Source: Terriglobia bacterium | Lineage (GTDB): Bacteria > Acidobacteriota > Terriglobia > Bryobacterales > Bryobacteraceae | NCBI GenBank assembly: GCA_020073445.1 | Contig: JAIQFE010000022.1 | Coordinates: 1-64,000, forward strand | Length of the DNA stretch: 64,000 bases | Direction: 5' to 3' | Shown: positions 35,706 to 56,265 of the stretch, piece by piece | How the letters are laid out: each line of letters starts with the position of its first letter | How positions within the stretch are numbered: the first letter of the stretch is position 1 | Notes under the pieces: model-generated | The model's input: only the letters and a program-made list of their open reading frames with translations | The model's database searches: none | Told to the model about the DNA's origin: nothing | Translations under genes and position numbers: made by a program

Positions 35706-35817
35706 GATGTTGTTCCTCTAGAAGATGGCGAACCGTGAATCACTTTCCCGGATCGCATCTAGAAGACGAGGGGGCCCTTGGACTGGTAACTACCCTCCAG
35801 GCGGGATGCCCAGCGGC

Positions 35818-37437
35818 TTACGCCGTAGCCGCTTCCTTCTGCGTTAAGAACTCGGTGTACGGACCCTTGAAGTCCTCGACCATATGGTTGTCGAAATTCC
35901 AGATGCGGGTGGCGACTTCTTCCACCAGATCGTGGTCGTGGGTGACCAGCAGGACGGTTCCGTCGTACTTCTGGAGCGCGATATTCAGGGCGTTGATCGA
36001 TTCCAGATCCAGATGGTTCGTCGGCTCATCCAGCATCAGGAAATTAGGCTTCTGCAGCATCAAGCGGCAGAAGATGATCCGCGCGGCTTCTCCGCCCGAA
36101 AGAACTTCGGTACGCTTGGTCGCGTCGTCCCCGCTGAAGAGCATTTGACCCAAGAGGCCGCGCAATTCCTGCTGCGACGCACTCGGTTCGAACGCGTGCA
36201 GCCATTCGATAATCGTGGAGCCCGGCCGGATGGACTCCTTGTGATCTTGCGAAAAATATCCCACCGTGACTTCATGACCCCAAGTGACCGTGCCGCCATC
36301 CACCGGAAACTCGCGTTCCGGCGCATCCACGTAACCCGTCGCATTGCGGAGCAGCGACCTCAGCATGGTGGTTTTCCCCGCACCGTTGCGCCCTAGCAGC
36401 GCGATTTTCTCACCTCGCGCGATGGACGCGTTGAAGTTCCTGATCACATGCAGATCGCCGTACGATTTTGAGAGCCCCTTTATTTCCAGGGGATGACGCC
36501 CCGATGGACGTTCATTGGCGAATTTGATGAAGGGGCGTTCGATGTTCGATCTCGCAAGAGCCGAAATCTGCAGCCGTTCCACTTCTTTCTTGCGGGAGGT
36601 GGTTTGCGCGGATCGGGTACCAGCCGAGAATCTCTGGATGAACTCTTTCAGCTGTGCAATCTTCTTCTCTCGAATGGCGTTCCCGGCTTCCACGCGTTCG
36701 CGGATCTGGGTCTTTGCGAGCACCATTTCGTCATACCCGCCGGTGTAGGTGATGATGCTTTGGTAGTCGATGTCGGCGGTATGCGTACAGACTTCATTGA
36801 GGAAATGGCGATCGTGGGAAATCACCAGCAGGCAGCCCGTATAGGCGGTCAAGTACCTTTGCAGCCAGTGCACCGACTCGAGATCGAGGTTGTTGGTGGG
36901 CTCGTCCAGCAGCAGGACGCTCGCGTTGCTAAAGAGCGCCTGCGCCAGCAGCACGCGCACCTTCTGGCCGCTCTGCAGCTCGGACATCTTGCGCTCATGC
37001 AGTTCTTCTGGAATGTCCAGGCCCTGGAGCAAAGTCGCTGCGTCCGCTTCCGCCGTGTAGCCGCCGTTATCTCCGACGATGCCTTCGAGTTCGCCCAGAC
37101 GCATGCCGTCCTCGTCGGTCAGTTCCGCCTTCGCGTAGAAGACTTCGCGCTCCTGCAACGCGTCCCATAAAGGCGCGTTCCCCATGATCACCGTATCCAG
37201 CACCCGGTAGGCATCGAAGGCGAACTGATCCTGGCGCAGAATGCCGATCTTCTTCGGACGGGTTACGGAGCCCTTGGATGGCTCGATCTCACCGGTCAGA
37301 ATTTTCATGAACGTCGACTTGCCCGATCCGTTGGGACCGGTGATCGCGTAGCGCCGTCCCTGCTGGAACGTGGTGGTTACGTCTTCGAACAAAATACGGG
37401 CGCCGAAGCGCATGGAAAGGTCGTTTACAGAGATCAA
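35818..37437 (-). CDS. ABC-F family ATPase (YbiT-like)
   Basis: 539 residues with two ABC domains and no membrane helix. Domain 1: Walker A GPNGSGKST, signature LQSGQKVR (the first residues deviate from LSGGQ), Walker B LLLDEPTNNLDLE. A linker of charged residues (VERLQISALARSNIERPFIKFANERP) follows. Domain 2: Walker A GRNGAGKTT, signature LSGGEAARI, Walker B LMLDEPTNHLDLE. ABC-F proteins act on ribosomes, in translation regulation or antibiotic resistance. The start is TTG, which aligns with the usual family N-terminus (SVNDLSMRFGA). It is divergent from the Kdp kinase gene. Confidence 0.92.
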   Translation of the reverse strand: MISVNDLSMRFGARILFEDVTTTFQQGRRYAITGPNGSGKSTFMKILTGEIEPSKGSVTRPKKIGILRQDQFAFDAYRVLDTVIMGNAPLWDALQEREVFYAKAELTDEDGMRLGELEGIVGDNGGYTAEADAATLLQGLDIPEELHERKMSELQSGQKVRVLLAQALFSNASVLLLDEPTNNLDLESVHWLQRYLTAYTGCLLVISHDRHFLNEVCTHTADIDYQSIITYTGGYDEMVLAKTQIRERVEAGNAIREKKIAQLKEFIQRFSAGTRSAQTTSRKKEVERLQISALARSNIERPFIKFANERPSGRHPLEIKGLSKSYGDLHVIRNFNASIARGEKIALLGRNGAGKTTMLRSLLRNATGYVDAPEREFPVDGGTVTWGHEVTVGYFSQDHKESIRPGSTIIEWLHAFEPSASQQELRGLLGQMLFSGDDATKRTEVLSGGEAARIIFCRLMLQKPNFLMLDEPTNHLDLESINALNIALQKYDGTVLLVTHDHDLVEEVATRIWNFDNHMVEDFKGPYTEFLTQKEAATA

Positions 37438-37553
37438 AATAGAGGTCTTTGCTAGGGTTGGGGATAAAGCCGATTTCAGCGACTACAATGCCATTATACC
37501 GCGTTGGTCGCGGGAAATCGCCTAGAATGGCAGCCATGGACGGTTTGTAACGT

Positions 37554-52048: not shown

Positions 52049-52387
52049 CTAGATCGCCGCTTCGCCTCGATCGTCGTTTCGGATTCGGACTGCGTCAACG
52101 ATGTCTGTCACAAAGATCTTCCCGTCGCCGATCACGCCGGTCTTGGCCGCGTCCGCGATCTTTCTGATAACTTCTTCCTGGCGCGCGTTTGGAATCACGA
52201 TCTCCAGCTTCATCTTGGGCAGAAGATCCACGTTGTACTCCATGCCTCGATACGTTTCCTTGTGCCCCTTCTGCCGGCCGTGACCGCGTACTTCAGTCAC
52301 GGTCATGCCGTCCACTCCTATTTCGAGCAAAGCTGCCTTCACGCTCTCCAGCTTGTGGGGTTGAATGATCGCTTCAAGTTTTATCAT
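52049..52387 (-). CDS. glnB: Nitrogen regulatory protein PII
   Basis: 112 residues from ATG 52387. MIKLEAIIQPHKLESVKAALLEIGVDGMTVTEVRGHG, then the T-loop GHKETYRGMEYNVDLLPK with uridylylation Tyr51, and GKIFVTDIVDAVRIRNDDRGEAA at the C-terminus. Trimeric sensor of 2-oxoglutarate, ATP/ADP and nitrogen status; blocks Amt under ammonium. It lies seven bases after amtB, so it is the usual transporter-PII operon and may be glnK rather than glnB. Confidence 0.93.
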   Translation of the reverse strand: MIKLEAIIQPHKLESVKAALLEIGVDGMTVTEVRGHGRQKGHKETYRGMEYNVDLLPKMKLEIVIPNARQEEVIRKIADAAKTGVIGDGKIFVTDIVDAVRIRNDDRGEAAI

Positions 52388-52394
52388 CGTAGGC

Positions 52395-53852
52395 TCAGCT
52401 TTCGAGGTTGTAGCCTTCTTCGCCGTGCATGCTGAGGTCGAGGCCCTGGGTCTCATCCTGATCGTCGACCCTCACGCCGAGCACAAGGTCGCAGATCTTC
52501 AGAATGATTAGCGTCCCCACGATCGCGATGCCCCAGGAGATGGCCACCGCGATGAGCTGGTTCATAACCTGGCCGGCATCGCCGTCTACCAGGCCCATGG
52601 GCTTGCCCATTCTGAGGTCGTTGACCTCCTTGGTGGCGAAGACGCCGGTCAAGATCGCACCGAGTGTTCCTCCGATTCCGTGCACCCCGAAGGCGTCCAG
52701 CGCGTCGTCATATCCAAACAACTGTTTGACCTTGCTGACCATCAGGTAGCAGACAACGCCGGCGGCGAAGCCGATCAGCATCGCAGGCATCGGTTTCACG
52801 AATCCGGAAGCCGGAGTGATCGCCACTAGTCCAGCCACGGCGCCCGAGATGGCTCCGAGCACGCTCGGCTTTCCGACCACCATCCATTCGATGAACATCC
52901 ATCCCAACACCGCCGCGGCCGTCGCAAAATGCGTCACGATAAACGCGCTGGTCGCGAGTGGTCCAGCGTTGAGGGCGCTGCCGGCGTTGAATCCGAACCA
53001 GCCTACCCACAGCAGGCACGCTCCGATTACGCTCAGCACAACGCTATGAGGACGCATCGATTCGTTGGGATAGCCCTTGCGCTTGCCTATTTACAGCGCG
53101 CAAACCAGGGCGGAAACTCCCGACGTTATGTGGACCACCGTGCCGCCCGCGAAGTCCCATGCGGGGATCACGCCTCCCAGAGTGCCTTGCAGGAATCCTC
53201 CCTTGCCCCAGACCATATGCGCCATGGGGAAGTACACAATAAACGACCACAGCGTCATGAAGAGCAGCATGGCGGAGAACTTCATGCGCTCGGCGAATGC
53301 CCCGGAAATCAGGGCCGGAGTGATGATCGCGAACATCAGCTGGTAAATCATCCAGGTCTGCTGCGGAATGGTGCCGGCGTAGTCGCCGTTCGGTTCCGCG
53401 CCGACGCCTTTCAAGAAGACGTAGCGAAAATCGCCTATAAACGGCGATCCCTCCGCGAAGCACAGACTGTAGCCGACGATAGCCCAGATTACGGACACAG
53501 TCGCCATGAGGATGAAGCTGTGCATCATGGTGCCCAGCACATTCTTCTTGCGCACGAGGCCGCCGTAGAACAGGGCTAATCCCGGACCGGTCATCATGAG
53601 GACCAGCGCGGAGCTGGTCAGCATCCATGAATTGTCGCCGGACATTTGGGCGTTCTTGGCGGCCTTATCCAGATCGTCGAGCTTCTTGGCCATATCTGCG
53701 GGAATTGCAGGGGCTGGTGCGGCGGTTGGTGCTTCCGTGGGCGTTGCTGGCGCGGCCGATTGCGCCAGTGTGACATTGGCGAACATCAGCGCCAAGCCAA
53801 GCGTCAATAACAGTCTGGTGAGAATTTGCGTCCGTTTAGAAAGTATGTTCAT
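52395..53852 (-). pseudogene. amtB: Ammonium transporter amtB interrupted by an in-frame TAA
   Basis: One continuous frame apart from a single TAA at 53091-53093. The first part (253 residues, ATG 53852, with GAGGAGC ahead) has a signal peptide, a Pro/Ala linker and then GPGLALFYGGLVRKKNVLGTMMHSF and AWDFAGGTVVHITSGVSALVCAL. The second part begins IGKRKGYPNESMRPHSV and contains LLWVGWFGFNAGSALNAG, DAFGVHGIGGTLGAILTGVFA and a normal end. In typical AmtB this junction reads ALxxGKR, so one sense codon has become TAA, without frameshift. Both halves keep the conserved His and Asp of the pore. ATG 53057, 34 bases on, could restart translation. Sequencing error, recent nonsense mutation or readthrough are all possible. 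Confidence 0.85.
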
Positions 53853-54186: not shown

Positions 54187-54192
54187 TATAGT
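54187..54192 (+). promoter_or_regulatory. -10 box of the kinase/regulator pair
   Basis: TATAGT (five of six to TATAAT) overlaps a GTG at 54191. Transcription would begin at about 54198, so the next GTG at 54227 with GGGAG six bases ahead is a better start. A -35 is not convincing. Confidence 0.35.
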
Positions 54193-54226
54193 GCGAAGCC
54201 GCCTACGAACGTTATGGGAGCAGACG

Positions 54227-55597
54227 GTGGAAACGTGTCTCAAGGCGGGACGCGTCAAGGTTGTGTCGATCGTCGTGCCCATGGTGGTCCTGATCGCCCT
54301 TGCGGATCGGGAAGTGGGTCTGGTTGTTTCACTCGGCGTTCTCTACATTCTGCCGATGATGATCGGCGCTGTTGCATGTGGCCCAATCGAGATCTTCCTG
54401 CTTGCCGGAGCATGCGCGTTTCTTCGGTCCTGGTTTGACACCCCTGCGACCGATGCAGAAGCCATCCTGAGATTCACGTTCGCATTGCTCGCCTACTTTG
54501 TCTCCGGTTTGTTCGTGGTCACTCTGGTTCATAACCGAAGACGGGCGGTGGATCACCTTGCAACGCTGGAGCGAGAGCAGGCTTTGCGCCGCGAGGCGGA
54601 AGAACAGTTGAAGCTGCTGGTCGAAAGCAGTCCGGCTGCGATTCTGACGCTGGATCACCGGGGCACCGTGCTCGCCGCCAACAAGGCTGCGAACGCACTG
54701 TTCGTGATCCCGGTAGGCAAGACGCTCCTGGGCAGGTCGATCACACCTTACATTCCGTTGCTCTCTGATGCGCTCGGTGTCGAAAGTGTTGAGGGCTTTC
54801 GCACGGCCGCCAAATGCCAGGGCTGCCGGGAAACCGGAGACATTTTCCTTGCCGACACCTGGTTTTCTTCGTATCAAGCTCCTGAAGGAATGCGGCTCGC
54901 CGCTATCGTGGTCGATTCGTCGGAGGAAATGCGCGATCGTGAAGATCAGAACCTGCGGCTCCTTCGCCGATCGAATCGAATCGCTGCGGCTGCGGTGTCG
55001 CATGAAGTTCGTAACCTGTGCGGTGCTCTGTCCCTGCTCCGCGCAAATGTGGAAGAGAAGCTCGGCCTATCGCAGGACGAAGACTTTAAGGGTTTCGCAA
55101 CGTTGATCAAGGGCTTGGACCGAATCGCCCGTCTGGAACTCGATGCACGCGCACAGGAACAGCTGGAAGAAGTGCCACTTCAGTCCGTGCTCGATAACCT
55201 TCGAATTGTCATCGAACCGGATTGGCAGGAATGCGATGGAGTGGTGCACTGGCAGCTGCCCGAAGGGATCCCGGCGGTGCTGGCGGATCCGTCGGGTCTG
55301 CTCCAGGCCTTGTTGAACCTGGCCCGGAACAGCCACCGCGCAGTCCAGCAGAGCGACACGCGCGAGCTGTGCGTATCGGTGTCCGTCAGAGATCAGCGGG
55401 CGTATGTCCGGGTTCAGGATTCGGGCCCCGGAGTGGTCTCTCCGGAAAGCCTGTTCCAGCCTTTTCAGCCTGGTGCTGAGGGAACTGGGCTGGGTCTGTA
55501 TGTGTCGCGTGCCGTCGTGCGCAGCTATGGTGGCGAACTGAGGTTCGAGCCTTCCGAAAGCGGTTCGCGCTTCGTGGTTGAATTGCAGGTGGTCTAA
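54227..55597 (+). CDS. PAS-containing membrane sensor histidine kinase
   Basis: 456 residues from GTG 54227; 468 from GTG 54191. Three membrane helices at the N-terminus (residues about 10-105), then a PAS domain (QLKLLVESSPAAILTLDHRG), then HisKA with AAAVSHEVRNLCGALSLL (His near 259) and HATPase with GVVSPESLFQPFQPGAEGTGLGLYVS. CQGC within the PAS region (AKCQGCRETGD) could bind metal or sense redox state. Placed between amtB-PII and glutaminase, it may sense nitrogen or glutamine; that is inferred from context. Confidence 0.87.
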   Translation: METCLKAGRVKVVSIVVPMVVLIALADREVGLVVSLGVLYILPMMIGAVACGPIEIFLLAGACAFLRSWFDTPATDAEAILRFTFALLAYFVSGLFVVTLVHNRRRAVDHLATLEREQALRREAEEQLKLLVESSPAAILTLDHRGTVLAANKAANALFVIPVGKTLLGRSITPYIPLLSDALGVESVEGFRTAAKCQGCRETGDIFLADTWFSSYQAPEGMRLAAIVVDSSEEMRDREDQNLRLLRRSNRIAAAAVSHEVRNLCGALSLLRANVEEKLGLSQDEDFKGFATLIKGLDRIARLELDARAQEQLEEVPLQSVLDNLRIVIEPDWQECDGVVHWQLPEGIPAVLADPSGLLQALLNLARNSHRAVQQSDTRELCVSVSVRDQRAYVRVQDSGPGVVSPESLFQPFQPGAEGTGLGLYVSRAVVRSYGGELRFEPSESGSRFVVELQVV

Positions 55598-55611
55598 GAA
55601 GGGAGTCAGAT

Positions 55612-56265
55612 TTGGATAACACCGCGGCTCAAACGATAAACTTGCTGCTCCTGGACGATCACGAAATGTTTCGCCAGGGATTGGCACGGGTGCTGGAGAA
55701 AGAACCCGGGCTTAGGGTCGTCGCGCAGTGTTCTTCTTCCGCTCAGGCTTTGGGTGCTCTCAAGAAGAGCGGTGCCAGCATGGTCTTGCTCGATGTGGAT
55801 CTGGGACCCGAGCGGGCCTTGGACTTCGTCACCCATGCGAAAAAGAACGGTTTTGAAGGGCAGATTCTCGTGGTCACGGCCGGGATCAGCGGTCCGCAGG
55901 CCGTTCAGCTGGTGCAGGCGGGCGTGGCGGGAATCCTGCACAAGCAGCATTCCACGGAGGCGCTTTGCGACGCCATCCGCCAAGTGGCCGCGGGGGAAGT
56001 TTGTATCGGAAAGGACTATCTCAGTTCGTTGTTTAGGTCGGTAGATCAGACCAAACCGCAAACCCAACCACGACTCACCGACCGTGACAAGACCGTGCTT
56101 CGATTCATCTTTCATGGGTTGACCAACAAGGACATCGCCGCCCAGCTGGATATTTCGGAAGGAGCCGTGAAGGCTTCGCTCCGGCAGTTGTTCGATAAGC
56201 TCGGCGTCCGGACGCGGGCGCAGCTGGTAAAGGTTGCCCTGGAGCAGTATAAGGAACAGCTCTGA
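55612..56265 (+). CDS. NarL-type response regulator
   Basis: 217 residues, TTG start with GGGAG six bases upstream. Receiver: D15/D16, phospho-Asp 61 (VLLDVDLG), Lys111 (LHKQ). C-terminal helix-turn-helix LTDRDKTVLRFIFHGLTNKDIAAQLDISEGAVKASLRQLF. It is 14 bases after the kinase, the likely partner. The adjacent glutaminase and amtB-PII genes are plausible targets. Confidence 0.9.
   Translation: MDNTAAQTINLLLLDDHEMFRQGLARVLEKEPGLRVVAQCSSSAQALGALKKSGASMVLLDVDLGPERALDFVTHAKKNGFEGQILVVTAGISGPQAVQLVQAGVAGILHKQHSTEALCDAIRQVAAGEVCIGKDYLSSLFRSVDQTKPQTQPRLTDRDKTVLRFIFHGLTNKDIAAQLDISEGAVKASLRQLFDKLGVRTRAQLVKVALEQYKEQL

Follow-up and report, generated by a model that had tools for sequence, protein, structure and literature searches.

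What becomes of a transporter gene when a stop codon appears in the middle of its frame and nothing else in the gene is disturbed? The question is raised by amtB, encoding an ammonium transporter (Amt), in the first 64,000 nucleotides of contig JAIQFE010000022.1 (assembly GCA_020073445.1), from a Terriglobia bacterium of the family Bryobacteraceae, phylum Acidobacteriota; this whole stretch was analysed and is called the window hereafter. A TAA codon, read directly from the sequence at positions 53091-53093 of the minus strand, interrupts an amtB that is otherwise intact. We favour, at a probability of about 0.6, a nonsense allele of recent origin in one of this genome's two amtB-glnK pairs, which probably makes the locus a case of ordinary biology and not a novel type of gene.

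An in-frame TAA separates two otherwise intact parts of amtB

The amtB frame comprises 485 codons on the minus strand, begins with an ATG at 53852 and ends with its natural stop at 52395; it contains a single TAA, at codon 254. The TAA is preceded by 253 sense codons, open from the ATG (53094-53852) and covering a leader and transmembrane helices (TM) 1 to 5, and is followed by a frame that stays open to the natural stop: 11 codons in the TM5-TM6 loop (53058-53090), then, from the earliest ATG past the TAA, at 53057, 220 codons for TM6-TM11 and the natural stop (52395-53057). Around the interruption the minus strand reads GTT TGC GCG CTG TAA ATA GGC AAG CGC, that is, V C A L stop I G K R. The two parts are covered consecutively by the Pfam family PF00909 (profile positions 2-169, then 186-399), and the gene translated through the TAA matches positions 2-399 of the profile at 401.5 bits, with the one TAA inside. 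Neither a frameshift nor a second stop was found in the gene. The two invariant pore histidines are both kept, one in each part, and an uninterrupted frame holding both is absent, the TAA lying between them. Directly downstream is an intact gene for a P-II protein, glnK (52049-52387, minus strand; ATG at 52387; PF00543, E 2.6e-29). A preliminary description of this DNA had proposed that an in-frame TAA splits two same-frame AmtB halves, that a PII gene follows and that translation could re-start at 53057; the frame, the PF00909 pieces and the coordinates agree with the first proposal, the PF00543 match with the second, and 53057 is, as a matter of coordinate, the first ATG past the stop.

In an AlphaFold2 model of AmtB translated through the stop (mean predicted local distance difference test score 87.5; 26 sequences), the stop corresponds to residue 190, which lies in the final turn of helix 173-191 (TM5), and the Met of ATG 53057 is residue 202, five residues before helix 207-227 (TM6). 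The highest-ranking sequence matches in the PDB include chains of Escherichia coli AmtB. As judged from alignment with E. coli AmtB, and from the pseudo-symmetry of TMH1-5 and TMH6-10 in Amt set out in the review PMC10794816, the stop separates the twin histidines of TM5 and TM10 and the break falls between TM1-5 and TM6-10. The locus thus resembles an AmtB-GlnK operon (PF00909 followed by PF00543) in gene order, in conserved motifs and in the Amt-fold helices of the model, and differs from it in that the frame is broken at the end of TM5, so that the primary product would consist of TM1-TM5 only.

The stop column is a coding position in relatives

At the column of the stop, Tyr is found in 21/21 other aligned copies, which come from 19 other genomes and include the genome's own paralog on contig C24 (see below), and also in two copies outside this alignment (L026 and L027); relative to the intact orthologs the TAA is a disabling change. 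The ortholog in a genome of the same genus (G019:C244), one of the aligned copies with Tyr, is intact and 89% identical, and is collinear with the region of the window that includes the neighbouring kinase and regulator genes; both amtB copies are present in G019. More distant copies have Met (L030, L039, L040), Trp (L041) or Val (L029, L031, L034) at this column. In a wider set of 80 named loci, the 67 that contain the query motif (the other 13 were not counted) have Val in 33, Tyr in 14, Met in 10, Leu in 9 and Ile in 1, with no stop nearby. The column thus tolerates several residues and is coding.

Within the genus, an Amt match was found in 22/23 genomes (this one included) and an internal stop in 2/52 matches; within the phylum, where scoring covered no more than four candidates per genome, 205/396 genomes gave a match, and among the 150 matches listed only the interrupted amtB has a stop inside. 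Apart from the interrupted amtB itself, no stop at the homologous place was seen among the 52 genus matches or the 150 phylum matches listed. An apparent "1 TAG" in six order-level rows was considered as a possible conserved stop and rejected, the three of the six that were examined (L032, L033 and L035) being natural terminal stops. The other genus match with an internal stop (L043; G005:C84:16260-17579, minus strand) belongs to a different Amt subfamily and has an in-frame TAG at a non-homologous place in a frame that is otherwise open. The codon after the TAA (ATA) differs from the Leu codon of the ortholog, a difference that discriminates between none of the readings considered here. When the 3' part was used as the query, the first ten named matches were from Acidobacteriota, with Bryobacter and Bryobacteraceae in the top three, and other phyla appear in the remainder of the 80.

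The genome contains a second, intact amtB-glnK pair

The genome (6.58 Mb, 102 contigs, 95.8% complete) gave five Amt matches: the interrupted amtB, a paralog on contig C24, a full-length Amt on contig C57 and two partial copies. The C24 paralog is intact, is 87% identical to the interrupted amtB and is followed by its own P-II gene; the C57 Amt is more distant. Ammonium uptake should not be lost with the interrupted gene, because the C24 pair is intact and another full-length amt is present. The loss of ammonium uptake entertained in the preliminary description is therefore not supported; the search for another amt gene that it suggested leads to these two genes.

The two partial copies have a stretch of 181 identical bases in common at the end of a contig and appear to be fragments of a single gene. 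One of them (L004; G000:C24:286710-287384) is a C-terminal Amt half that lies beside a frame read as a 5'-truncated transketolase, a label given without a family search. It was considered as a second natural split at the same boundary and rejected, its 181 bases being identical to the end of C57 (L005), which holds the N-terminal part; we take L004 and L005 for an assembly or rearrangement junction.

Both parts of the interrupted gene remain constrained

Ratios of nonsynonymous to synonymous substitution (dN/dS) were estimated for the branches of the interrupted copy and of its ortholog from Nei-Gojobori distances and a three-point split, with four chosen outgroups and again with 20. With four outgroups, a run in which some resamples gave no value, the interrupted copy has a branch dN/dS of 0.050 (95% interval 0.024-0.101) and the ortholog one of 0.032 (0.015-0.060); the overall excess of dN in the interrupted copy is 0.006 (-0.007 to 0.020), at a branch dS of about 0.39-0.47. 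Before the stop the ratios are 0.031 (interrupted) and 0.011 (ortholog), and after it 0.068 and 0.052. The corresponding pairs with 20 outgroups are 0.053 and 0.032 overall, 0.027 and 0.017 before the stop, and 0.079 and 0.047 after it. In only two columns, one of them the stop, does the interrupted copy differ from a residue that all the others share; for the other copies the number of such columns ranges from 0 to 7. Thus, neither the relaxed constraint nor the further decay expected of a pseudogene was found, the branch dN/dS being 0.050 and the gene being free of other stops and frameshifts. The upper bound of the excess dN allows, roughly, no more than a few per cent of this branch to have passed without constraint; a long loss of constraint is unlikely, because dN would then be far higher. 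With both halves still constrained, the stop is therefore recent, an error, or tolerated.

A recent nonsense allele as the favoured reading

Of these, a recent stop is what we favour. Both amtB-glnK pairs would predate the split from G019, and one of them would later have gained a nonsense change at a Tyr codon. Translation would end after TM5, and the resulting piece of 253 residues would hold only one pore histidine of the two and lack TM6-TM11; because of both deficits, the interrupted copy is predicted not to conduct ammonium. With the C24 copy intact and a further amt present, the loss would be buffered, and the gene would be either a pseudogene in the making or a null allele that segregates in the population. 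What is seen directly is a stop in the assembly, intact copies elsewhere, continuing constraint and no other decay; the reality of the base, its recent origin and the inactivity of the product are inferred. Stray nonsense codons do occur in the Amt family, as the in-frame TAG in G005:C84 indicates. The preliminary description had left four outcomes side by side: loss of ammonium uptake, a two-piece transporter, readthrough and a sequencing error. What stands best is a single nonsense change that would inactivate this copy, at a column that is Tyr in every other aligned copy; the part that concerned uptake does not stand.

Belinky et al. (2021; PMC7918605) describe in-frame stops in bacterial genes as widespread and mostly short-lived, with dN/dS below 1. 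The interrupted amtB resembles those genes: its in-frame stop is single and apparently short-lived, dN/dS is below 1 to either side of it, and decay has gone no further; it differs in being known from one genome only, with a ratio of about 0.05 that belongs to an inter-species branch.

Several observations weigh against a recent nonsense allele. The stop is known from a single genome, and Belinky et al. set aside stops confined to one species, many of them possibly artefacts. The excess of dN in the 5' part, 0.0097 (-0.0002 to 0.0217), is almost significant, and simple truncation would not single out the 5' part. The 3' part is still constrained (0.068, 95% interval 0.021-0.251), as is also expected from readthrough or from a working second piece. 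Lastly, dN/dS of the interrupted copy lies a little above that of the ortholog in every comparison, these branch values being rough, with dS between the orthologs near 1 and close to saturation.

Alternative explanations

An error of base calling or consensus, or a mixture of strains, such that a sense codon stands here in the organism or in its main strain, is unlikely and yet the alternative that survives best. It would fit a draft assembly of 102 contigs in which one base event affects a gene with no other decay, and at least one join in this assembly is doubtful, that of the Amt half on C24 whose 181 bases are identical to the end of C57; singletons of this kind are often artefacts in the account of Belinky et al. 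(PMC7918605). Against it, an internal stop was found in 0/259 domain matches of three large families elsewhere in the genome (69 to PF00005, for which 150/159 candidates were scored, 117 to PF00072 and 73 to PF12704; the matches are to domains only, and several of them share a gene). Stray stops are for this reason rare in the assembly, even if a single position could still be wrong. A codon-usage screen of the window for other broken genes, in which 319 stops were tested, had little power and ranked the amtB stop only ninth; two of the 25 sites that it listed, 22464 and 38112, overlap longer frames on the opposite strand.

Low-level readthrough, in which an amino acid inserted at the TAA would yield some full-length AmtB and keep both parts constrained, we regard as improbable. 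The low dN/dS of both parts and a column that accepts Val, Tyr, Met, Leu or Ile are what such a process would call for, and readthrough is proposed for many in-frame stops by Belinky et al. (PMC7918605). Against this, no anticodon for a stop codon is present among the 46 tRNAs found in the genome, a set that looks incomplete (150/175 candidates scored in a genome 95.8% complete; tRNA-Ile (gat) is not among the 46), and no other match examined has a stop at the same place. TAA, moreover, is a stop codon with little leakage.

That TM1-TM5, made from the first start, and TM6-TM11, made from ATG 53057, together form a working pore is very improbable. In the model the stop falls between the pseudo-symmetric halves, so that a two-piece transporter may be geometrically possible, and the 3' part stays constrained. 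The Shine-Dalgarno duplex at ATG 53057 (-2.6 kcal/mol) is weaker than the median of 223 internal ATGs (-3.4 kcal/mol) and far from the value at the amtB start (-7.9 kcal/mol), but the glnK start, a genuine one, reaches just -2.1 kcal/mol, so that these values tell neither for nor against a re-start. Against the two-piece reading, the Met of ATG 53057 is present in all 21 other aligned copies, and hence is not a new start, and the arrangement is seen in one genome only. Comparably improbable is a natural split Amt, in which the break at the half boundary would be tolerated and TM1-TM5 and TM6-TM11, made separately, would reassemble, mimicking the half-size ancestors that the internal symmetry suggests; no report of a split Amt was found in the literature searched on AmtB premature stops and pseudogenes and on split ammonium transporter genes.

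Neighbouring genes and a further region of the window

Divergent from amtB, on the plus strand (54191-56265), are a gene labelled histidine kinase without a family search (54191-55597) and a response regulator (55612-56265; PF00072 match at 55645-55980), and similar DNA lies beside the G019 ortholog. Elsewhere in the window, positions 35815-37443 contain two matches to ABC-transporter ATPases (36016-36441 and 36892-37386) and show 83.5% DNA identity to G019:C244 21787-23419, slightly above the 81.9% of the amt-glnK region.

Significance for the Amt family

Read as a nonsense allele of a gene present in duplicate, the interrupted amtB would represent routine gene loss caught early, or else an assembly error. 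If it were true that both parts are made, the locus would be a natural split at the boundary of the pseudo-symmetry, and would offer a direct test of Amt as two half-size subunits.
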